27,491 bases of DNA from a virus. Location of the stretch: positions 1-27,491 of the IMG/VR virus record IMGVR_UViG_3300028571_000094; one strand, 5' to 3'. Position numbers and translations under genes: made by a program. The notes below the pieces were generated by a model, which did not search any database, had not been told where the DNA came from, and worked only from the letters and a program-made list of their open reading frames with translations. Positions 2,779-18,802 of the stretch are shown in pieces. Each line of letters starts with the position of its first letter. Positions within the stretch are counted from its first letter, which is position 1.

Positions 2779-3280
2779 TCTTGCTAATAATAAAGTAGTT
2801 TTTGAAGCAGAGCTATTATTGGTACCAGAGTTTAAAGCACTATGGGAAGCAGATAAAAGCAAAACCAAAGACTTAGTATTTAAGCAGTTTGCTTATATAT
2901 ATTTTATGATAGACTCTGGTAGTCCTTATAGTAATTTTCCAGAATATAAAAGGAAGGAGTTTATAGGTAAGGATATTTTTAAGGGAGAAATAAAAGAAAC
3001 TCCTTCACTAAAGGCTGCTATGGATAAGTACATAGAAATGTCAGAAAGCCCTACACAAAGGTTACTAACTAGTGTTAAGGGTAAGATAGATGATGTGGCA
3101 AACTTTTTGAAGAACACAGACATTACTGAAGATTCTCTAGCACCAGTACTTAAAGCTATTGAAAGTACATCAAAACTTGTATCACAATTATCTACTCTAG
3201 AAGATGCTGTAAATAAAGAAAAAGCTACAGATGCTACTAGAAGAGCTGGAGAAAAAAGAACTAGAAAATATGAGGATTAG
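2765..3280 (+). CDS. Candidate small terminase subunit, 171 aa
   Basis: It overlaps the start of the large terminase gene, the usual place for a small subunit. The N-terminal part holds KTKDLVFKQFAYIYFMID followed by SPYSNFPEYKRKEFI, a pattern I associate with conserved proteins beside terminases in large phages. The middle (about 85-150) is helical, as expected for an oligomerisation region, and the last 20 residues are very basic (RRAGEKRTRKYED). No classical helix-turn-helix is obvious. Small terminases diverge quickly, so this is an assignment by position and architecture. The gene ends with TAG, which shows TAG is a normal stop here. Confidence 0.45.
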   Translation: MKIFNLANNKVVFEAELLLVPEFKALWEADKSKTKDLVFKQFAYIYFMIDSGSPYSNFPEYKRKEFIGKDIFKGEIKETPSLKAAMDKYIEMSESPTQRLLTSVKGKIDDVANFLKNTDITEDSLAPVLKAIESTSKLVSQLSTLEDAVNKEKATDATRRAGEKRTRKYED

Positions 3281-5288
3281 TATTCCACCAAAGTATTTTC
3301 AGGAAGCATCTTATAGTTTTCAAGACCATGGGGTATATACTCAATACCCTATAGGCACTTATCAGTTTGATGAGTTTTGGGAAGAAGAAACTAGAAAATG
3401 TAAAGAAGGGATTACCCATGGAGAATTGTACATTCCAGGGGCATATTATTTTTATTTGAACTATACACAAATTGAACTTAAGAATACTAAGACTGGTAGA
3501 AAAAACAAAGGCTTTCCTATTTTTACAGATGTTGACTTAGAGTATTTTACTTTTATTGAAAAAGCTAGAAAACAACAGAAAGGTATAGTATTAGTAAAAC
3601 CACGAAGGATTGGTTTTTCATATAAGTCAGCAGCTATTATTGCACATGAGTTTAGTTTTTTTAGAGATGCTAAGTGTATTATAGGTGCTTTTCAATCAGA
3701 GCTTTCTGAGAATACTATGAGGATGTCATTAGATGACCTTAACTTTCTGGACTTACATACAGAGTGGGGTAAAGAAAGAAATCCTAACACCAAAGACTTT
3801 GTTAAAGCTAGATATAAAAAGACAGTAGATGGGGTAACAGCTTGGTCAGGGTATATGTCTGAGATACACTCTTTTACTTTTAAAGATAACCCCTTTGCTG
3901 CTATTGGTAAATCTAGTAACCTTTTCTTATTTGAGGAAGCTGGTAAATGGCCAGGGTTACTTCAGTCTTATAATATATCTGAACCTTGTTGGAAAGATGG
4001 TGATGACCTTATTGGTGTTCCTATTATTCAAGGAACTGGTGGTGATATGGAAGGTGGTACACAGGAATTTGCTGAAATGTTTTTTCATCCTGAAAAGTAC
4101 AACTTCTTATCTTTTGATAATATATGGGATGAAGATTCTATAGGTACAAAATGTGGCTTTTTTATACCAGCTACCAGAATGAGATTTGGTACTTATAAAG
4201 ATGCTTATAAAGAACATCCTGAATGGAAGGATAAATCTATGATAGATGACTATGGTAATTCTCTTGAAGATATTGCTAGGCAGTCTATTTTAGATTTAAG
4301 AAAAAGAGCAGAACAAGGTGCAGACCAGCAAGCTAAAATTGACTCTGTTACACAGTTTCCATTATCTCCTAAAGAAGCTTTTTTACAAAGTCATTCTTTT
4401 TTCTTTCCTATTGTAGATTTAAAAGGAGTTTTATCTAAGATGGATGATTCCATTGAATTAGATAAACACAGTATAGGTATGCTGAATTTTGAAGAAGGTG
4501 AGCTTAAATGGAAAGATGTCCAAAATGGTACTCCTTTCAGAGAGTACCCTGTACAAAAACCAGAATATGGGTTAATTGAAATATATGAAACACCTAGACT
4601 ATCAGATGATGGAGATAACATAGGTAGGTATATTGCTGGTATTGACCCTTATAGATATGATACATCTAGTACAGATTCAGTAGGTTCTATATTTATGTTT
4701 GATAGGCTAACTAGAAGGATAGTTGCTGAATATACTGGTAGGCCAGAAACTACTGACCAGTTTTATGAAACATGTAGAAAGCTGATTATTTACTATCAAG
4801 CTACTGCTATGTATGAAGCTAACATTACTGGTATGTACACATATTTTGAAAAGAAAAAAGCTTTACAGTTTTTAGCAGATACTCCATATAACCTTAGAGA
4901 TAGAAATACTTGGAGGCCCAATACCAATACTTCTAAAGGAATTATTATGAGTAAAGGGGTTAAAGAAAGGGGTATGGAATATCTAAAATCTTGGATAGAT
5001 GAAAATATTTCTGAAGAAAGCGAAGAAAAAAATCTAACAAAAATAAGATCTATTGGTCTACTAAAAGAGCTTATAGCTTGGAATCCAAACCCTAGAGCTA
5101 ACTTTGACCGTGTGTCAGCTATGCTTATGGTTATGTGGTATGATGTAACTTTACAAGAATTTACTCGTATATCTATAGAACAATCACCTCAAAAGAAAAA
5201 AACTGCTTCTTATTTTGATAAATACAAACAAAAAAGAAATGATCAAGATATATGGATGAAGCACTTTAATAACATACAAGAAGAATAA
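3270..5288 (+). CDS. terL: Terminase large subunit (packaging ATPase and nuclease)
   Basis: Powers DNA translocation into the procapsid and cuts the concatemer. From the ATG at 3270 the protein has 672 aa. The ATPase domain has a Walker A-like VKPRRIGFSYKS at about 109-120 and a Walker B NLFLFEEA near 217-224, followed by IIQGTGG as the coupling motif. The RNase H-fold nuclease domain has IAGIDPYRYD (Asp at about 459), MYEANITG (Glu at about 516) and NFDRVSA (Asp at about 613), giving the expected acidic triad. An upstream in-frame ATG at 3231 adds 13 residues but lies deep in the previous gene. I prefer 3270, which has an 11-base overlap and an A-rich leader. The portal gene follows after one base. 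Confidence 0.94.
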   Translation: MRISIPPKYFQEASYSFQDHGVYTQYPIGTYQFDEFWEEETRKCKEGITHGELYIPGAYYFYLNYTQIELKNTKTGRKNKGFPIFTDVDLEYFTFIEKARKQQKGIVLVKPRRIGFSYKSAAIIAHEFSFFRDAKCIIGAFQSELSENTMRMSLDDLNFLDLHTEWGKERNPNTKDFVKARYKKTVDGVTAWSGYMSEIHSFTFKDNPFAAIGKSSNLFLFEEAGKWPGLLQSYNISEPCWKDGDDLIGVPIIQGTGGDMEGGTQEFAEMFFHPEKYNFLSFDNIWDEDSIGTKCGFFIPATRMRFGTYKDAYKEHPEWKDKSMIDDYGNSLEDIARQSILDLRKRAEQGADQQAKIDSVTQFPLSPKEAFLQSHSFFFPIVDLKGVLSKMDDSIELDKHSIGMLNFEEGELKWKDVQNGTPFREYPVQKPEYGLIEIYETPRLSDDGDNIGRYIAGIDPYRYDTSSTDSVGSIFMFDRLTRRIVAEYTGRPETTDQFYETCRKLIIYYQATAMYEANITGMYTYFEKKKALQFLADTPYNLRDRNTWRPNTNTSKGIIMSKGVKERGMEYLKSWIDENISEESEEKNLTKIRSIGLLKELIAWNPNPRANFDRVSAMLMVMWYDVTLQEFTRISIEQSPQKKKTASYFDKYKQKRNDQDIWMKHFNNIQEE

Positions 5289-5289
5289 T

Positions 5290-7800
5290 ATGTACAATAG
5301 AATGTTTACTGCTCCTAGTCAATTAGTAACTGATTCAGTTAAGAAGACTAAAAAATGGCAACAAGACACAATAGATTCTTTTGAAGCTTTAGTGCTTTTT
5401 GAGAATAGACAAATTAAAAACTCTTACTACAATAAAGTAACAAACTACAATCTAAAAAGAGGCATTCTCAATATGAATGATGTTGAGAAAGTAGTTGACC
5501 CTTATGGATTAGGTCTAGGTACTTTTCCTGGCAGAATGGAGCATAAAGGAGTGGGTAACTCCAAGATTGACTTGCTGGTAGGAGAGCACATGAAAAGAAA
5601 GTTTGACTTTAGAGTTATAAGGTCATCTTCAGATCAGCAAGGTATTAGAGAAGTAGAAGAAAATAAGTTACAAGAGTATCAGAAGTTTTTTGTAGAGGAA
5701 GTCCAGAATGCTAATTTTGATGAAGCTCAAGCTGAAAGAAGGCTAAAACAATTAGATGAATACACAAACTCTTCATTTTTTGATGTAGCCGAAAGAGGAG
5801 CTAACAAGCTTCTTAAATATTTATACAAGTACTATTATGTAAAAGACCTAGTATTTGACCCTGCTTTTGAAGATGCACTTATTGCTGCTGAGCAATACTG
5901 TTTTATTGAAGAAATGGGTGGAGAGCTAGCTATTAGAAAAGGAGATCCTACTAGGATTTTTACAATTATGAATGGCCATGCTACAAATGAATCTGGTTTA
6001 GAGGCATTAGTAGAAGTTACTTATCATACTATATCTTCTTTAGTAGATTTATTCCATGACTTTTTAACTAAAGACCAGCTTAAGGAATTAGAGGATTATA
6101 GAGGATATAACTCAGGCCCCACTCCTTATTTTAATTATCCTATGTATGGCCATGTAGGAGAACTAGCTATTCCTTCTGATTCTGCTACTGCTAGAGTTCA
6201 GGAGATTATGCCATTAGGGGATTTAGATTTACCTATGTTTTCTAGCTACTTTGATGCTAGAGGTAACATCAGGTTACTACATTGTATTTGGAGATCTAAG
6301 AGAAAAGTAAAGCTTGTTAAGTCCCTAGATGAAAATGGTATAGAACTACTTAAGTATGAGCATCAAAAATATACTATTGATGAGCTTAATGGAGAAACAC
6401 TAGAAAGAGAAGAATGGATTAATGAGTGGTGGAGAGGTTATAAAATTGGTGCTAATATCTATATTAAAGCTGAGCCTATTCCATATTTAGGTAATTCACT
6501 AGATAACATTTCTAGACAAGAGCCTCCTGTAGTATTACAGTTCTACAATACCAATTCATCTAGAGCACAGTCTTTAATGGATATTATCAAGCCTTATGAT
6601 TACTTGTATAATATCTTTGATTATAAAAGACAAGTTTTAATAAATTTAATGCTACCAGATATTGTGCAGTTTCCTACTAGCATGATTCCTGATAACATGA
6701 CTTTACATGAGTTTTTGAACTATGTAACCTCTACTGCATTTATGCCTATGGATCCTACAGCAGAGATAATGACCCCTAAAGGTCTGCAAGCTGCAGGAAC
6801 TTATAATACTATTACTCCTAATAGATTATCTTCTAATCAAAGTGGGCCTATTAGTGTACTTAATAATGTACTGCAAGATATCATCAGAACTATGGATATA
6901 GTATCTGGTGTTACTCAACAAAGACAAGGTGCTATTTCTAGTACAGAGCTAGTAGGTAATGTAGAAAGAGCAGTTAGTCAGTCTTCACTTACTACTGAAA
7001 GATGGTTTTGTAAAAATGAATTCTTCAAGGAAAGGTGTTTAAAAAGAATACTAGATATTGGTATTCATGTATTAAGAAAAAATCCTAAGAAGCTTTCATA
7101 TTTAATGGATGACTTTACTAAAGAGATAATGACTGATGATGAGATTAATGGAATCTTATTAGCAGACTTTGACCTTATGGTATCTAGGTCTTCAGATGAT
7201 GCTATGTTACTACAAATGATTGAGCAAAACTTTAGTCAAGCTGTAGCTGCTGGTACTGCTGATATGGGTGATCTTATTAGTGTGTTTAAAACTGAAAGTG
7301 TCCAAGATGCAGCTAGAATCTTAAAGAAAAAAAGAGAAGAGCAACAAGCTAGACAAGAGCAGCAACAACAAGAAGTTAATAAAATCAAGCAACAGGAGAT
7401 TCAACAAAAAGCTCAAGCTCACCAAGAACTTATGGCTCTAGAAATGAAAAAACTAGAACTTGATAAATATAGGTATGACTTAGATGCTCAAACTAGATTG
7501 CAAATAGCTACTATCAATACTTATGCAAGAAGAGAAGAAATAGACTTGAATAACAACCAGATTCCAGATCCTATAGAATTAGAAAAGGTTTATCAGAGAG
7601 ATAGAGAAGCTGAAGCTAAAAAAATGGATAAAGAATTGGAAGTAACTACTAAGTTTAACATTGAACAACAAAAGCTAGCTCTAGAAAGAGAAAAGCTACA
7701 AAATGCTAGAGAGATAGAAAGGCTAAAATCTGAAACTGCTAAAGAAGTAGAAAGAATGAAACTTAGAAATCCTGTAGCAGGAGAAAGAATTAAAAAATAA
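5290..7800 (+). CDS. Portal protein with long C-terminal coiled coil
   Basis: An 836-aa protein immediately after the large terminase. Its size, position and long helical content fit crAss-like portal proteins, which form the dodecameric vertex through which DNA passes. Residues about 1-670 form the portal body. Residues 678-836 are a Gln/Glu/Lys-rich coiled coil, comparable to the barrel extensions of podovirus portals that project into the capsid. Inside this extension, residues 752-763 read DLNNNQIPDPIE, with acidic or amide residues at loop positions 1, 3, 5, 9 and 12 as in calcium-binding loops. The start is one base after the terminase stop, implying coupling. The identity is strong by context but is not supported by a catalytic motif. 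Confidence 0.88.
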   Translation: MYNRMFTAPSQLVTDSVKKTKKWQQDTIDSFEALVLFENRQIKNSYYNKVTNYNLKRGILNMNDVEKVVDPYGLGLGTFPGRMEHKGVGNSKIDLLVGEHMKRKFDFRVIRSSSDQQGIREVEENKLQEYQKFFVEEVQNANFDEAQAERRLKQLDEYTNSSFFDVAERGANKLLKYLYKYYYVKDLVFDPAFEDALIAAEQYCFIEEMGGELAIRKGDPTRIFTIMNGHATNESGLEALVEVTYHTISSLVDLFHDFLTKDQLKELEDYRGYNSGPTPYFNYPMYGHVGELAIPSDSATARVQEIMPLGDLDLPMFSSYFDARGNIRLLHCIWRSKRKVKLVKSLDENGIELLKYEHQKYTIDELNGETLEREEWINEWWRGYKIGANIYIKAEPIPYLGNSLDNISRQEPPVVLQFYNTNSSRAQSLMDIIKPYDYLYNIFDYKRQVLINLMLPDIVQFPTSMIPDNMTLHEFLNYVTSTAFMPMDPTAEIMTPKGLQAAGTYNTITPNRLSSNQSGPISVLNNVLQDIIRTMDIVSGVTQQRQGAISSTELVGNVERAVSQSSLTTERWFCKNEFFKERCLKRILDIGIHVLRKNPKKLSYLMDDFTKEIMTDDEINGILLADFDLMVSRSSDDAMLLQMIEQNFSQAVAAGTADMGDLISVFKTESVQDAARILKKKREEQQARQEQQQQEVNKIKQQEIQQKAQAHQELMALEMKKLELDKYRYDLDAQTRLQIATINTYARREEIDLNNNQIPDPIELEKVYQRDREAEAKKMDKELEVTTKFNIEQQKLALEREKLQNAREIERLKSETAKEVERMKLRNPVAGERIKK

Positions 7801-7823: not shown

Positions 7824-8216
7824 ATGGATGATATTATTAAAGAATTAGCAGGACTTAAATTATCAAAAAGTGCACCAGAAGCATTTATTGCTAAGTTGTT
7901 TCAGTCTAGGGATATTGCTCATTTAGCTCATTTATCTACTAAGAGCTATGCAGAACACATGGCATTAAATTCATATTACGATGGACTGCTAGATTTTATT
8001 GATGGATTTGTAGAGGCATATCAAGGACTTTATGGAATTGTAAAGCTTGAGATACCTAGTTCTACAAATGAAAACCCTATTAAACACCTAGAAACTCTTC
8101 ATAAGTTTATTGACGAAAATAAGAAGGTTTTCACTGACTCTGCTCTGTTAAATCAGATAGATGAGGTAAAAACTTTAATTCAGTCAACCCTTTATAAACT
8201 GAAGAACCTTTCATAA
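7824..8216 (+). CDS. Ferritin-like/Dps-like small protein, 130 aa
   Basis: All-helical protein with IAHLAHLSTKSYAEHMAL, then YYDGLLDFIDGFVEAYQGLY. His33, His45, Asp60 and Glu64 reproduce exactly the H-x11-H-x14-D-x3-E spacing of the Dps ferroxidase site (H51/H63/D78/E82 in E. coli Dps). The residues around them also align in character (AH-, -EH-, -D..-E..-LG). I believe related phage proteins are grouped in the DUF5856 family. At 130 aa it is shorter than Dps (about 160), mainly after Glu64, and the extra Dps acidic ligand is Asn49 here. It sits between portal and scaffold genes, so it may be a virion component. Iron or metal binding is inferred. Confidence 0.6.
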   Translation: MDDIIKELAGLKLSKSAPEAFIAKLFQSRDIAHLAHLSTKSYAEHMALNSYYDGLLDFIDGFVEAYQGLYGIVKLEIPSSTNENPIKHLETLHKFIDENKKVFTDSALLNQIDEVKTLIQSTLYKLKNLS

Positions 8217-8328
8217 GTCTATATAATCTATATATAAATGCTATATACCCTGTGCCTATGGTATCAATTTATACTGGATTATTGCAACTTATATTTAAAT
8301 TTGTATGTATTAACTAACAACTATTAAC
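8217..8328 (+). promoter_or_regulatory. A+T-rich intergenic leader with promoter candidate
   Basis: A 112-base gap, one of the largest between genes here. CTATATA occurs three times (8219, 8228, 8241). TAAATTTG at 8296-8303 matches the Bacteroidota -7 consensus TAnnTTTG, but the -33 region is poor. No terminator hairpin is seen. It may hold a promoter for the scaffold-like and capsid genes. Confidence 0.35.
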
Positions 8329-9549
8329 ATGGCATTAGATCTATTTAATTCGTTAAAAGTAGAGGAACAGCCTCTAATGAGCTTATCAGAAGTAGAAACT
8401 ACTTCTGGTACTTCTACTATGTCTTCAGATGAAGATGATTCTGGGACAGGTGATTCCAGCCAGGCAACTCCTAAGTCAGGAGATTTGATGCCTATTACAG
8501 ATATGTCAGACACAGATGATGGTGGAGAGCCTTCCAAGGCAAAAAGTGATGAATCTAACACCTCCTCAAGCAAACCAAATTCATCCTCTCAATCATCATC
8601 TAAAAAATATGCAGCCATTATTAAAGCTCTACATGAAAAGACTGGAGCTTTTGAAGGATTTGATGAAGAAGAATTTGAAGATTCTCCTGAATCTTTCCTT
8701 GACTATTTAGATGAGTATGCAACAAAAAATGCTGAAGCTATGGCTTCAGACTATATTGAGAGAAACCTAACTCCACTTCAACAAAAGTTTGTTGATATGG
8801 TGGAGAATGGTATTTCTGAGGAATCAGCTACTCAAATTGTTAAAGGTTATAAATTAGCACAAGGTATTAATGAAGATGTATTAGTAGAAAACCCTGATAA
8901 AGCCAAACAATTATATGCTGAGTATCTTCGTTATACTACTACTTTCTCTGAAGAGAAAATTCAAAGAGAAGTACAAAAGAAAGAAGACCTAGGAACTTTA
9001 ACAGATGATGCTTTAGAAAGTCTTCCTGAGTTTAAACAACTCCTAGCAAATGCTGAAAGAGAAGCTCAAGCTGAGTTAGCTCAGAATGAGTTTAAAAGAA
9101 GAGAGTTCCAAAAAAGACAAGCTGATGAGCTTAAGAACTATTTGGAAGGTACTGATGAAATTGCTGGAATTAAACTAAATAAAAAAATGAAGGACAACTG
9201 GATGAGAGAATACTCAATAGTTGAAACTCAAGATGGTAAAAAAGTCAACCCTATCTTGGCAACAAGAGATGTTGACCCTAATAAATTTGATGCTCTACTT
9301 AGACTATATCATACAATGGGACTATTTAAGTATGATGCCAGAAAGAGAGATTTTGTTCCTGATTTTACTGCTATTAAATCTCTAGGCAAAACTGAAGCTA
9401 TTAATGAGCTTCACAGAGCTGTAGAATCTGATAATGTAAGGAGAAGAACTTCTGGCTATTCTTCAGATAGTGGAGTAGATATGGATGTAGAAAAAGAAGA
9501 CCATAAAAAACGCTGGGCTGAATTAGCCAAAAAACTAGCACCTAAATAA
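8329..9549 (+). CDS. Putative capsid scaffolding protein
   Basis: A 406-aa protein directly upstream of the major capsid gene, the usual scaffold position. Residues 1-90 are very acidic and Ser/Thr-rich (for example SSDEDDSGTGDSSQATP) and probably disordered. Residues 95-280 are highly helical and charged, with coiled-coil potential around 205-275 (EREAQAELAQNEFKRREFQK). The C-terminus is basic (KKRWAELAKKLAPK), reminiscent of scaffold C-termini that bind coat protein. No protease motif is visible. A retained head or cargo protein is the main alternative. Confidence 0.6.
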   Translation: MALDLFNSLKVEEQPLMSLSEVETTSGTSTMSSDEDDSGTGDSSQATPKSGDLMPITDMSDTDDGGEPSKAKSDESNTSSSKPNSSSQSSSKKYAAIIKALHEKTGAFEGFDEEEFEDSPESFLDYLDEYATKNAEAMASDYIERNLTPLQQKFVDMVENGISEESATQIVKGYKLAQGINEDVLVENPDKAKQLYAEYLRYTTTFSEEKIQREVQKKEDLGTLTDDALESLPEFKQLLANAEREAQAELAQNEFKRREFQKRQADELKNYLEGTDEIAGIKLNKKMKDNWMREYSIVETQDGKKVNPILATRDVDPNKFDALLRLYHTMGLFKYDARKRDFVPDFTAIKSLGKTEAINELHRAVESDNVRRRTSGYSSDSGVDMDVEKEDHKKRWAELAKKLAPK

Positions 9550-9580
9550 TCTTTAATTTAATAACTAAACCCTAAAACAA

Positions 9581-11113
9581 ATGACTGAGTTATTTCCCTT
9601 AATTGCGAGGTACGGCCCTAAAACTTTTAATGGCCCCCTCAAAGTTCCCCACTTGGGAGAACTAGGCATGATTGAGCCTCAATTGGCTTCTGACATGTAT
9701 CGTAGAATTTTCCAAACTCTACCTTCTGATGATTATGTGAACTTTATGAATGAGTTCCCTACTAGAGTTCTTGATACTGAGAACAAGTTTTACCATTGGA
9801 GAGTAGCTGGCAACAACAACAAAACTGTACAGCTTCTTGATTGGTCTGACTCTCTTGGTGCTAAGCCTGCTGCTGTAGGTCTTAATCAAGCTCGTTGGTA
9901 TATGATTTTTGGAGAGAGATTCTTTGATTTGAATGACGTTATTGTAGGACACAATCCTGATGATTACTACGTTCAAGTTAAGAGTGTTGAAGAACAAGCT
10001 CCTAATCGTTGGAAATATGAAGTTTCTCTTATTACTGATGATCCACTAAACCGTTCAATGCCTGCCACTGAACTTAATATTGGTACTCGTTGGTCTAAAG
10101 AAACTAACTTCCAATCTGGAGAGCGTTCTATGAGTGGTACTCAAGCTCACTTTACTACTTTTGTAGAATTGAAAGCTCGTGCTGCCCTACAACGTATGAA
10201 CTACAAAGTAGATGGTAACATTATTGCTGAAGGTAAAAACGTACCTCTAGCTTTTGGTTTTCCTGATCCTACTGATCCTAAGTCTACTAAGCCTTATACT
10301 GGAGCTTTTGTTAACTTCTATGATATGGTTGCTCTATATCAATTTAAGAAGCAACAAGCTCGTGCATTCTTGTTCTCTCACAAGAACTACACTCAAAATG
10401 AAATCTATTATGGTATTGATGACCGCAATGGTTGTACTATCCAGACTTTTGCTGGTATGTTCAAGCAAATTGCTAACACCAATATCCACCCCTACTCTAC
10501 TCTAAACCTTGACAAAATTGTAGACATGACCATTGAAATGGGCTTGGCTTACAAAATGCAAGATGAGTATTATGTAGTAATTGAAACTGGTGCTTATGGT
10601 AAGAAAGATATTTCTCAATGGATTGAGAGTCGTTCTACCCAATACACTCCTAACTTTGTAACTGAAAGAGTACAAAAGAATGGTGATATGGGAAGCCAAG
10701 GCTTAACCTACCAAGGTGTATTTACCCAGTTTAAGTCTTACAATGGTGTAAACATCATGGTTAAGCACAGACCTTTCTTTGATGATGTAGAACGCTACAA
10801 AGAAAAGCATCCTTCTGGATATGGTCTTAATGCTTCTCGCCATATGTTAATCCGTGGTGGACACAAAATGGCTAATGGTGAGTTCTTGGGAGATCCTGGA
10901 ATCCATCGTTTGACTGTTAAAGGTCTTGAAAATGGAGTATACAAGTATATTGCTGGTATGCGTGATCCATTCTCTCCATATACTAATAAAGTAAATACTG
11001 GCTCAGCAATGACTAGCAGCCCTGTTGATGCTTATGAAGTACATGGTATGGAGTGGACTGGTTGTGTTGTAGAAGACCCTACCAAAATCTTGTGGATGCC
11101 TTATAACATCTAA
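9581..11113 (+). CDS. Major capsid protein (HK97 fold, crAss type)
   Basis: A 510-aa protein that builds the icosahedral shell. Its N-terminal segment (LFPLIARYGPKTFNG, then LGELGMIEPQLASDMYRRIF) is the part I recognise from crAss-like capsid proteins, and it lies after the scaffold-like gene as expected. The middle holds long beta-rich insertions and the C-terminus ends WTGCVVEDPTKILWMPYNI. The gene uses CGT/CGC for arginine far more than neighbours such as terL, which use mostly AGA, and more C-ending codons. That is the sign of a very highly expressed gene. A strong terminator follows within 20 bases of the stop. Confidence 0.92.
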   Translation: MTELFPLIARYGPKTFNGPLKVPHLGELGMIEPQLASDMYRRIFQTLPSDDYVNFMNEFPTRVLDTENKFYHWRVAGNNNKTVQLLDWSDSLGAKPAAVGLNQARWYMIFGERFFDLNDVIVGHNPDDYYVQVKSVEEQAPNRWKYEVSLITDDPLNRSMPATELNIGTRWSKETNFQSGERSMSGTQAHFTTFVELKARAALQRMNYKVDGNIIAEGKNVPLAFGFPDPTDPKSTKPYTGAFVNFYDMVALYQFKKQQARAFLFSHKNYTQNEIYYGIDDRNGCTIQTFAGMFKQIANTNIHPYSTLNLDKIVDMTIEMGLAYKMQDEYYVVIETGAYGKKDISQWIESRSTQYTPNFVTERVQKNGDMGSQGLTYQGVFTQFKSYNGVNIMVKHRPFFDDVERYKEKHPSGYGLNASRHMLIRGGHKMANGEFLGDPGIHRLTVKGLENGVYKYIAGMRDPFSPYTNKVNTGSAMTSSPVDAYEVHGMEWTGCVVEDPTKILWMPYNI

Positions 11114-11130
11114 TAGTTGTGGATATTTGT

Positions 11131-11156
11131 AAAAGTGGGGATAAAACCCCACTTTT
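11131..11156 (+). terminator. Intrinsic terminator after the capsid gene
   Basis: A perfect 10-bp stem, AAAAGTGGGG paired with CCCCACTTTT, closes a six-base ATAAAA loop and ends in a T-run. It lies 17 bases after the capsid stop, so it should limit read-through or protect the abundant upstream transcript. The A/T ends make it partly usable in both directions. Confidence 0.88.
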
Positions 11157-11180
11157 GCATTATCACTTAAAAATATTGCT

Positions 11181-12179
11181 ATGAGTAAACAACTAAGAAA
11201 AAAAACACAAGAAATGCCCCAAGAAGAAGTAATAACTTTGGCATCAATTGAATCTAAACCCAAGTATTCCTCACAGGATTTCTTGGCTAAAAAAGTTGTT
11301 AGAGTAGTTCCTATTGAAACTAGGACTTTTACTAACCAACAAATAGAACAATTGCCAGAAGGATTTATTCATGAAGGAATGGGAAGATCTCTAGAATTAA
11401 AGAGAGATAGAACTACTGGTGAGTTTTTACCTATTTTTGATAACATCGAAAATGTAATTACTCCTCAGTTTCCAGATGAGCCTATGACAGAACTAGAGTT
11501 CTTCAGTAAGATTACTGGATATGATTTATCTTTTTCTAAAGATAGTAAAAACTTTTGGTCTGGATGGATATCTGAAGGGCCAAACAACAGAGGTAAATTA
11601 CCTTATTCTGTAAAGCTTCCAAAAGAAGGTTTGACATTAGATTTAAGTAATGCATGGGACAATATCACTTGGAGGGTTTTAAAAACCAATGATAGGTATA
11701 TTGCTCCTTCATGGGAACTTAGAAATGCTAAGCCTACTTACTGGTTTGCTTTAGTAGATGAGAGAATTTCTGTAGACTTGAAGAAAGAAGAGATTAATCT
11801 TAAATTAAAAGCAACCGAAGAGTTTAACAAGATTAAAGATCATCGTGAAATCCTTATGGAGTTTATGATTATTAAAGATCCTAACAACATTATCTCTAAA
11901 ACTGCATCTACAGATTTCTTATTTAATCTTGTGTATGAAGTAATGGAAACCAACCCTAAGCTATTCCTATCTATTGTTAATGATGAATATCGTGAAGATA
12001 AGATTCTTATTTTCAAAGCAGTAAGAGCAGGAGTACTTAAGAAAATCAGCACCAAATACTTTACTATGGGTGATGAACCACTAGGAGTATTAGGTGATGT
12101 TATTTCACTTATTAACAACCCTGAAAAGCTAGAATTCCGCAAGAAGCTAGAGTTTCAAGTAGAGAATTCTAATCTATGA
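11181..12179 (+). CDS. Conserved structural/connector protein, 332 aa, unknown role
   Basis: First gene after the capsid terminator, in the place where crAss-like phages carry a conserved unknown head gene. The N-terminal 80 residues look extended. A beta-rich middle contains FFSKITGYDLSFSKDSKNFW and TYWFALVDE. The C-terminal 130 residues are helical, with lysine-rich segments. No enzyme motif or membrane segment is seen. It shares an ATGA junction with the next gene, implying coupled translation and related function. The leader (ACTTAAAA...TTGCT before ATG) resembles that of the gene at 21291. Confidence 0.6.
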   Translation: MSKQLRKKTQEMPQEEVITLASIESKPKYSSQDFLAKKVVRVVPIETRTFTNQQIEQLPEGFIHEGMGRSLELKRDRTTGEFLPIFDNIENVITPQFPDEPMTELEFFSKITGYDLSFSKDSKNFWSGWISEGPNNRGKLPYSVKLPKEGLTLDLSNAWDNITWRVLKTNDRYIAPSWELRNAKPTYWFALVDERISVDLKKEEINLKLKATEEFNKIKDHREILMEFMIIKDPNNIISKTASTDFLFNLVYEVMETNPKLFLSIVNDEYREDKILIFKAVRAGVLKKISTKYFTMGDEPLGVLGDVISLINNPEKLEFRKKLEFQVENSNL

Positions 12180-12964
12180 CAGCAAATGAAATGTGGCAAT
12201 TAGTCTTAGTTGAGTATGAAAAACTCAACTCTGCTGGAGCCCCTGGTATACAGGGAGGTGAGGCTAATATCATATTGACTAATGCCCAGAATTATTTTGT
12301 TCATACTAGAATTACTGCTATCTTAAATTTGAAGAGGGAAGGGTTAGAAGAAACAGAAATCAGAATGCAGGGGTTATCACCATTGATAACCTCTGCTACT
12401 GTTTCAAGTTTTACTAATACCACAGATAACTTACCTAATGGTGTGTTTGCCACATTACCATTAGATTTTATGTACACTATTTTAGAAAGGTGTGTTATTG
12501 ACCAGAATGATTGTGAAACTGGTGAACCTGCTGATTTACCTGTGTATGTTATATCTCATAATGAGTTTAACAGAAGCAGAAATAATCCATTCAAAAAACC
12601 CTATTTTAATCAAACTGAAGGTTTAGTATGGAGATTAGCATTTACTAGAACCAATACTGGATATAATTCTCAAACTACTACATCATCTAATGGGTACTCA
12701 TTTATTACTGGTCAAACAGGCAAAAGGCATGAATTAATTACAGATGGAAATTTTAATATTGTAGATTACGATTTACGATATTTAAGACTTCCAAAACCTG
12801 TTAAAGTAGACTTAGTAAACTTCGTAACCCCTGTAAACATGCAGAATTGCGAGTTAGATGAATCTACTCACAGACCTATTGTGGACATAGCTGTTAAGAT
12901 GATGAAAGAGTCATTAACACAGCCCTCTCAATCTTTACAACTAGATGCTCAACAAATTGAGTAA
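12176..12964 (+). CDS. Putative head-tail connector (ring/adaptor) protein
   Basis: A 262-aa protein starting in an ATGA overlap with the upstream gene. N-terminal helices (MTANEMWQLVLVEYEKLN) are followed by a long beta domain containing FATLPLDFMYTILERCVI and FKKPYF, and by YDLRYLRLPKPV. A C-terminal CELDESTHRPIVDIAVKMM helix ends the domain. The sequence from LP-DF to the TH-PIV-AV helix resembles an adaptor type that recurs in head-tail connectors of Bacteroidota phages. It is probably a ring under the portal or an adaptor. The family is judged by eye. Confidence 0.5.
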   Translation: MTANEMWQLVLVEYEKLNSAGAPGIQGGEANIILTNAQNYFVHTRITAILNLKREGLEETEIRMQGLSPLITSATVSSFTNTTDNLPNGVFATLPLDFMYTILERCVIDQNDCETGEPADLPVYVISHNEFNRSRNNPFKKPYFNQTEGLVWRLAFTRTNTGYNSQTTTSSNGYSFITGQTGKRHELITDGNFNIVDYDLRYLRLPKPVKVDLVNFVTPVNMQNCELDESTHRPIVDIAVKMMKESLTQPSQSLQLDAQQIE

Positions 12965-16715: not shown

Positions 16716-17294
16716 ATGTCAAAGTATATTAATACAACTAGGCAAAGTGTATTTAAAAACACAGGAGCATCAGGAAGTGGTAGCTCTGTAGGAGGACTTT
16801 TTTCTCAAACTGGAGATAGTCCTAACAATGCTACTATTTTAGAAACTACTTTAATTGATGGTGGTGTAGGTTCTTTAACAGTACCTGCTAATGGTTTTAC
16901 AGTAGGTGATTCTTTTTCAATAGTAATGGGTGGTAAAGTTAGTTGCAGTAATAATTCTCCAATTACTATTAGAATTAAAAGTGGGGCTGTTGTTTTAGCT
17001 ACAACTGGCTTATTTTCATTACATCTAACTACTTTAAAAAACTGGGAGTTAGAAGTAACTTTTACTATTAGAGCTATTGGTGCTGCTGGTGTGGCATCTA
17101 TTGCAACACATGGAGATTTTTTATATATAAGAGATTCTAGTTCTAATTTTGAAGGTATGACTTTTAGTTCTACTAACAACACTACCTTTGATACCACAAT
17201 ATCTAATACTCTAGATATTACTGGTCAATGGTCTACATTGAATGCTGCCAATGTATTATACTCAGAAATATTCACCTTATCTAAAATTTACTAA
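16716..17294 (+). CDS. Fibre-like beta-sandwich protein, 192 aa
   Basis: Starts with a flexible Gly/Ser-rich segment (NTGASGSGSSVGG, about residues 15-27), then a beta-rich domain with many Thr, Ser, Asn and Ile residues. This is similar in layout to the 214-aa fibre-like protein but lacks the cysteine anchor. It lies four bases after the previous gene and one base before the holin. A tail or head fibre head domain is the most likely role. Family not recognised. Confidence 0.5.
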   Translation: MSKYINTTRQSVFKNTGASGSGSSVGGLFSQTGDSPNNATILETTLIDGGVGSLTVPANGFTVGDSFSIVMGGKVSCSNNSPITIRIKSGAVVLATTGLFSLHLTTLKNWELEVTFTIRAIGAAGVASIATHGDFLYIRDSSSNFEGMTFSSTNNTTFDTTISNTLDITGQWSTLNAANVLYSEIFTLSKIY

Positions 17295-17295
17295 G

Positions 17296-17727
17296 ATGAA
17301 TCACTTGTTATATACATGGACTAGACCTGTTATTGAGTGGATACACTCTACTTTTATAGGAATTTTAGCTTATACTGTTGCATTTTTTGCACCAGTTGAC
17401 AAGTATATTACTGCAATAGGATTTATTGTAGTTCTTGATATGGTAGTAGCTATTATAATTGCAATTAGACAGCCTGGAGGTATAAACAATATTGAAAGCA
17501 GAAAACTTTGGAGAACTGTTATTAAGTTCTGTGTTTATCCTATGGCTATCAAAGGAGCATATTTTATTGAAAATACTTTTAGTCCACATGTTCCTGCTGT
17601 ACAGTTAGTATCAGCACTTATAGCTACTGCTGAAGTCAAATCACTTGATGAACATTGGGAAAAGCTTTTTGGTTATTCTATATTTAAGTCTGTAATTAAC
17701 CTATTGACTACAAAGGGTATTAAGTAA
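17296..17727 (+). CDS. Holin (phage_holin_4/TcdE-like)
   Basis: A 143-aa membrane protein, hydrophobic at about 17-34 and 37-57 and more weakly at about 73-90 and 98-112. It contains VVLDMVVAIIIAIRQPGG, SRKLWRTVIKF, YFIENTF and TAEVKSLDEHWEKLFG. The Asp in the second segment, the Lys/Arg-Lys-Leu motif and the final acidic E-x-SI/SLDE region match the phage holin 4 family. Holins pore the inner membrane at the end of infection and release the endolysin. An in-frame upstream ATG at 17242 would overlap the previous gene by 53 bases. The ATG at 17296 gives the proper holin N-terminus one base after that gene's stop. The amidase is two genes downstream. Confidence 0.75.
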   Translation: MNHLLYTWTRPVIEWIHSTFIGILAYTVAFFAPVDKYITAIGFIVVLDMVVAIIIAIRQPGGINNIESRKLWRTVIKFCVYPMAIKGAYFIENTFSPHVPAVQLVSALIATAEVKSLDEHWEKLFGYSIFKSVINLLTTKGIK

Positions 17728-18322: not shown

Positions 18323-18802
18323 ATGAACTACACAGAAGTTTTTAAAGAATCTCCTAATAAATCTAGAGTGCTACAACCTACTGGGATTGTATTACATCAC
18401 TCTGCAGGTAATTTTGTGGGCTCAGAAGCTTGGATTTTATCTCCAAAAAGCAAGGTGTCATATCATTGTTTAGTAAACACTGATGGGAATAGAACTATAT
18501 TAGTCCCTGATAATAAAAGAGCATGGCATGCTGGTGTATCTTCTTTTAAAGGTAAGCAACATTGTAATAACTTTCTGTTGGGTATAGCGGTAACTGGTAA
18601 TACTAGTAAGCGTTTACTAAATGAAGATGAGATTAATAGTGTTGCTGAATGGTGTGTGGCCAAAATGAAACTTTACAACTTTGGGATTGACAGGATAACT
18701 ACGCATAGAGAAATATGTCCAGGGAGAAAAGCTGATGTAGATCCGAGAGCTGAAAAAGCTATCAAAGAAATGATTCTGGAAATGTTAAATAATAATCATT
18801 GA
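18323..18802 (+). CDS. N-acetylmuramoyl-L-alanine amidase (endolysin)
   Basis: A 159-aa zinc amidase (Amidase_2/AmpD/PGRP fold) that cuts the MurNAc-L-Ala bond of peptidoglycan. It shows GIVLHHSAGN with His25, SYHCLV with Tyr47, and THREICPGRKADVDP with His128, Lys136 and Asp138. The H-x9-D spacing with Lys two residues before Asp matches AmpD (H154/K162/D164), so the zinc ligands are probably His25, His128 and Asp138. There is no signal peptide, so it depends on the holin for release. No cell-wall-binding domain, as is usual for phages of Gram-negative hosts. Confidence 0.93.
   Translation: MNYTEVFKESPNKSRVLQPTGIVLHHSAGNFVGSEAWILSPKSKVSYHCLVNTDGNRTILVPDNKRAWHAGVSSFKGKQHCNNFLLGIAVTGNTSKRLLNEDEINSVAEWCVAKMKLYNFGIDRITTHREICPGRKADVDPRAEKAIKEMILEMLNNNH

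Follow-up and report, generated by a model that had tools for sequence, protein, structure and literature searches.

The window, a 27.5-kb virus record of 27,491 nucleotides, encodes directly behind its portal gene a real, well-conserved Dps-like protein, a shortened relative of the Dps with which bacteria detoxify iron; it belongs to an already widespread phage family, DUF5856/PHROG 858. At a probability of roughly 0.7, we read this protein as a trimmed Dps-like miniferritin, packaged or expressed late, with a two-subunit metal site that would guard DNA from iron and peroxide chemistry. The additions made here are a corrected ligand set, the crAss-like portal and muzzle neighborhoods of the gene, and a link to scattered virion mass spectrometry (MS) data. 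The following genes and codons, listed by window position, carry the argument.

3231 to 5288, + strand: terminase large subunit gene (phrog_6681, E 3e-120)
5290 to 7800, + strand: portal protein gene (phrog_6547, E 8.4e-86)
7824 to 8216, + strand: DUF5856/PHROG 858 Dps-like protein gene (ATG start, 130 aa, 14.7 kDa, pI 5.7)
7920 to 7922, + strand: H33 codon, an extra invariant His one helical turn before H36 (invariant in 85/85 homologues; aligned with E. coli Lys48)
7929 to 7931, + strand: H36 codon, predicted equivalent of the first Dps ferroxidase His, E. coli His51 (invariant in 85/85; alignments)
7956 to 7958, + strand: H45 codon, predicted equivalent of the second Dps ferroxidase His, E. 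coli His63 (invariant in 85/85; alignments)
8001 to 8003, + strand: D60 codon, predicted equivalent of E. coli Dps Asp78 (invariant in 85/85; alignments)
8013 to 8015, + strand: E64 codon, predicted equivalent of E. coli Dps Glu82 (invariant in 85/85; alignments)
8329 to 9549, + strand: 406-aa ORF in a scaffold-like position ahead of the capsid gene (by position only)
9581 to 11113, + strand: crAss-like major capsid protein gene (PF23898, E 2.4e-61)

The Dps-like ORF begins 23 bp after the portal ORF and is followed by the 406-aa ORF and then by the crAss major capsid gene, an order that is kept in close relatives whose contigs span the region. A preliminary description of this DNA had placed the gene between portal and scaffold. 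The portal side of that placement stands, whereas the scaffold side is a matter of position; Pfam and PHROG searches with the 406-aa ORF gave no significant match. The window comes from a deep crAss-like lineage: identity to known Crassvirales records, among the best matches listed, does not exceed 36% for its terminase and is about 26 to 27% for its capsid protein. Elsewhere in the window, positions 12176 to 12964 match crAss tail ring protein 3/4 (PF25710, E 3.8e-19), and a holin (PF05105) and an N-acetylmuramoyl-L-alanine amidase (PF01510) lie near each other (17242 to 17727 and 18323 to 18802) as a lysis pair within the structural region.

Membership in DUF5856, a family that the preliminary description had named for comparison, was borne out by profile searches: the protein covered the whole Pfam model (PF19174, positions 1 to 94 of 94; E 5.6e-22, 79 bits against a curated cut-off of 34.6) and nearly all of phrog_858 (positions 13 to 128 of 129; E 4.8e-27), which its database labels a "starvation-inducible transcriptional regulator." In one collection of 50,697 phage records, 649 matched the family. 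Most of these come from phages that infect enterobacteria or Aeromonas, and Ackermannviridae, T4-like phages (MobD.6), and jumbo phages are all represented. Proteins of gut crAss-like phages are already entered in BFVD and GenBank as "putative DpsA" and "DNA-binding protein," among them PhiCrAss001 gp7, which the DUF5856 model detects with a score below the cut-off. Pfam Ferritin (PF00210) was not listed as a match for the window protein and reached 14.6 bits with one homologue (cut-off, 24.5). A literature search for papers naming DUF5856 found none.

The preliminary description had proposed a Dps-type metal site, and the predicted structure is consistent with that proposal. An AlphaFold2 model built with 73 homologues (pLDDT 93.1) folds as a ferritin-like four-helix bundle with helices at residues 18 to 38, 42 to 70, 85 to 102, and 106 to 128. 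The top rows of its Foldseek PDB list were almost all Dps, with weak E-values (best, 0.053), and in the VIA comparison the model matched MsDps2 with a Z of 13.6 (2.2 Å over 115 residues) and E. coli Dps with a Z of 12.2, values close to the range in which helical bundles can match by arrangement alone. Since other ferritin-like proteins (Bfr, FtnA, and others) scored only slightly below Dps and the Foldseek E-values were weak, the Dps assignment rests on the residues plus the fold. Profile comparisons supplied a second line of evidence. While a single-sequence search of PDB sequences with the window protein gave no match, nearly all top matches of a 20-homologue profile belonged to the Dps family (1ji4, E 7.3e-5; MrgA 2chp, E 7.9e-4), and the best matches of a 73-sequence profile, although weaker (1.7e-3), were still Dps. 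The 20-sequence profile was too divergent for scanning contigs, for which closer sub-alignments were used instead. With hhalign, a seven-sequence bacterial Dps profile aligned in the same register with a probability of 83% (E 9e-6), and E. coli Dps alone aligned weakly (E 0.017). The residue pattern and the profile matches together point to Dps, rather than to any ferritin-like bundle, as the right comparison. The predicted fold also matched two giant-virus entries in BFVD, from Pithovirus LCPAC404 (A0A481ZC29, E 7e-4) and Fadolivirus (A0A7D3V608, E 1.5e-3), which suggests that Dps-like proteins may also occur in viruses of eukaryotes.

Conservation was assessed in 85 non-redundant homologues (<80% identity), in which exactly six positions were invariant: H33, H36, H45, Y52, D60, and E64. 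The preliminary description had read His33, His45, Asp60, and Glu64 as a Dps signature, H-x11-H-x14-D-x3-E. These residues do fit that pattern in the window protein, and all four are conserved throughout the set. Shuffling the window protein produced the exact pattern in 0.06% of cases, and 2 of the 9059 unrelated ORFs taken from the fetched loci contained it. Nevertheless, the H-x11-H portion is not the homologous spacing. The H33-x2-H36 and H45-x14-D60-x3-E64 spacings are fixed in all 85 sequences, whereas the interval from H36 to H45 varies (x8 in 75, x11 in 3, and x12 in 7). Four alignments of the window protein to Dps (HMM against PDB sequences, hhalign against E. coli Dps, hhalign against the Dps profile, and a combined alignment) all placed H36 on E. 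coli His51, H45 on His63, D60 on Asp78, E64 on Glu82, and H33 on Lys48. The structural alignment pairs model residue 16 with Dps residue 31, where an unbroken helix begins, and, although reported by its end points only, would likewise set residue 36 on 51. H33 was therefore rejected as a ligand; the predicted equivalent of Dps His51 is H36, and H33 stands at the Dps spacing only by coincidence because the A-B loop has three residues fewer than its counterpart in Dps. Thus, the bundle fold and the residue invariance behind the Dps-type metal-site proposal stand, but the ligand set needs H36 in place of H33.

H33 has a counterpart in a non-ligand His of some bacterial Dps proteins ("HNFHW," "HGYHW"), and two of the three further bacterial Dps sequences aligned carry His at this position. 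Members with longer A-B loops read AHIFHLQVKGPGAFAAH, resembling bacterial Dps LKTHNFHWNVEGPMFNTLH, and the loop of the x11 members (H-LQVKGPGAFAA-H) has the same length as that of Dps (H-WNVEGPMFNTL-H). Homologues with a Dps-length loop (L024, L269 to L279, L094, and L097; for example, HLQVRGDEGSYAKH), some of them on contigs of several hundred kilobases, are possibly closer to the ancestral form; a single-sequence fold of L094 (pLDDT 43.5) was left out of the analysis.

The coincidental H33-x11-H45 spacing lends something to the idea that the whole pattern arose by chance in an unrelated helical protein. This idea is contradicted by the invariance of the residues, the Dps matches in the profile searches, and the fold match, and we consider it hardly credible.

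Several features do depart from Dps. The short BC helix of Dps is absent from the window model, which has coil at residues 71 to 84, and the B-C connection is mostly 13 to 18 aa long across the family; without this helix, the dimer and the cage could differ from those of Dps. Asn occupies the accessory-ligand position, as the preliminary description had noted: N49 is the equivalent of Asp67, at a position that varies in the family (N, G, D, R, Q, or E) and is Asp in crAss DpsA. Leu37 replaces Trp52, which is retained as W in L020, L023, and crAss DpsA. The tail beyond E64, which had been described as about 30 residues shorter than in Dps, is in fact about 19 residues shorter (66 versus 85 aa in E. 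coli Dps). With the BC helix lost and Asn and Leu replacing Asp67 and Trp52, cage assembly and the exact chemistry may differ.

In Dps, the metal site takes its His ligands from one subunit and its Asp and Glu ligands from an antiparallel partner. In the window model, one end of the A-B hairpin carries H36 and H45, while D60 and E64 lie 15 to 19 residues beyond H45 on the continuous helix B, >20 Å away by helix geometry. Given this separation along one helix, sharing a single metal would require an antiparallel partner, and a metal site shared across such a dimer would account for the strict conservation of both ligand ends with Dps spacing. In the mechanism that we propose, two subunits would pack antiparallel, one contributing H36 and H45 and its partner D60 and E64, and would bind iron or a different divalent metal where they meet. 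Fe(II) would be oxidized at this predicted site using peroxide or oxygen, and Fenton damage to phage DNA would be lowered during replication, packaging, or injection. The protein would be made late and carried in the virion, as the MS data for homologues and the position of the gene beside portal or muzzle genes suggest.

Coating phage or host DNA would be a different function, that of a DNA-binding or regulatory protein. Current database annotations ("starvation-inducible transcriptional regulator," "DNA binding protein") are in line with it, as is the placement of a protein of the former name among "DNA-associated" virion proteins in one proteomic study (PMC13119998). However, the family has no conserved Lys/Arg-rich basic tail at either end (such a tail occurs in only some Dps), and its median pI is acidic, at 5.5, so direct DNA binding is not indicated. 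We found no DNA-binding test for any family member, and we regard this explanation as improbable.

The placement of the family in virions draws on homologues in other phages, outside the window's clade. LIMEstone1 ORF078 is a family member marked as a "confirmed structural protein"; putative late promoters occur in its region, and virion MS identified ORF78 as a 13.15-kDa protein by 3 peptides at 28% coverage (Table 2, PMC3296691); the orthologue in JA15 has a computed mass of 13.149 kDa. The record for phiR1-37 g280 carries its own note, "phage structural protein." A "starvation-inducible transcriptional regulator" was detected, with 26/27 peptide-spectrum matches, in CsCl-purified virions of two Klebsiella Jiaodavirus phages (PMC13119998), a detection that, by annotation name only, probably concerns this family. 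PhiCrAss001 gp7 is not named as a virion protein in the text of either PhiCrAss001 virion study. A Dps-like protein had been anticipated as a new type of virion component; with family members in hundreds of phages, a "putative DpsA" already annotated as PhiCrAss001 gp7, and ORF078 confirmed by MS in LIMEstone1, the protein, although real, is not an entirely new type of virion-associated component.

A portal gene directly precedes the family gene in two lineages, the window's crAss clade and the L017/L019-type podoviruses. Of the 278 family ORFs in the fetched loci, whose sampling was biased by the choice of queries, 107 were portal-adjacent; among non-redundant ORFs, 12 of 84 were, besides the window. 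In seven other crAss-like contigs (L050, L060, L061, L069, L070, L071, and L084), the gene is directly preceded, within about 12 bp, by a muzzle-type gene and lies near positions 7968 to 8345 (7717 to 8094 in L061). The muzzle call comes from PF25731 in the four contigs tested (L050, L061, L071, and L084) and from similarity to these in the other three. In PhiCrAss001, the muzzle gene immediately precedes cargo protein 1. ORFs downstream of the muzzle-adjacent family genes had no significant profile link to crAss cargo protein 1, and one local BLASTP match, a single pairwise comparison, joined the L061 downstream protein to PhiCrAss001 cargo protein gp45 (E 7e-8); the label "cargo-like" for these ORFs is tentative. 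Near the muzzle and Dps-like genes of L050, positions 8721 to 11780 encode a 1019-aa protein with a DUF5872 domain (PF19197) at its end. In T4-like phages, Ackermannviridae, and PhiCrAss001, the family gene is not portal-adjacent; PhiCrAss001 gp7 lies beside tRNA genes upstream of the terminase. In a tree with weak deep supports, the window protein is distant from cr106_1 DpsA and stands closer to other environmental phages; gain or relocation of the gene therefore probably happened repeatedly among the crAss-like carriers.

These neighborhoods, portal-adjacent in two lineages and muzzle-adjacent in a third, together with the LIMEstone1 MS result and the loss of the BC helix and Trp52, could also be explained by a structural head or neck protein with a Dps fold, whose conserved His/Asp/Glu cluster would hold a structural metal that joins the dimer close to the portal or tail and would not act as a ferroxidase. 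We consider this unlikely: all four catalytic-ligand equivalents are retained, the gene lies far from the structural modules in T4-like and PhiCrAss001 genomes, and the PhiCrAss001 atlas, in the part of its text available, describes no such protein. The wide variation in gene position among phages is in line with an unpackaged intracellular factor that protects an oxygen-stressed host during infection, for which portal adjacency would reflect operon timing only, and protection of anaerobic hosts is a role already suggested for the Dps and Mn-catalase genes of gut phages (PMC8008677). Against this, MS places homologues in the virions of unrelated phages, at least one and probably three of them, and we find such a factor rather doubtful. 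As an extension of the miniferritin reading, the protein of crAss-like phages may be a cargo that is packaged at the portal or with muzzle and cargo proteins and leaves the particle together with the genome, in which case every virion would bring its own iron- and peroxide-detoxifying ferroxidase into the host; we put this forward tentatively, as a possibility short of an expectation.

Under the miniferritin reading, DUF5856, still labeled "unknown function" or "transcriptional regulator," has a function that can be tested, and the crAss-like portal and muzzle neighborhoods offer a concrete place to look. If the protein is packaged and active, iron and peroxide chemistry would take place inside the phage particle, and this would bear on genome stability in virions and on the infection of anaerobic or oxidatively stressed hosts.

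Compared with bacterial Dps (E. coli Dps, MsDps2, and MrgA), the window protein has a like predicted fold and presents the equivalents of His51, His63, Asp78, and Glu82 in the same order, but its A-B loop is 3 aa shorter, it lacks the BC helix, it has Asn for Asp67 and Leu for Trp52, and, unlike some bacterial Dps, it is without a basic DNA-binding tail. The "putative DpsA protein" of Steigviridae (PhiCrAss001 gp7 and cr106_1) is a divergent member of the same family (PHROG 858, E 2.1e-8 for cr106_1). The cr106_1 protein has the pattern H-x8-H-x14-D-x3-E, keeps both HW and an equivalent of Asp67, for which the window protein has Leu and Asn, and carries Lys where the window protein has H33. 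LIMEstone1, a T4-related phage of the Ackermannviridae, carries its virion-confirmed member near a DNA primase gene and not beside the portal. The DUF5856/PHROG 858 proteins of T4-like phages (MobD.6), Ackermannviridae, and jumbo phages share the same six invariant residues and their spacing with the window protein; those of the T4-like phages and Ackermannviridae lie in other neighborhoods, whereas the window gene lies directly after the portal gene.
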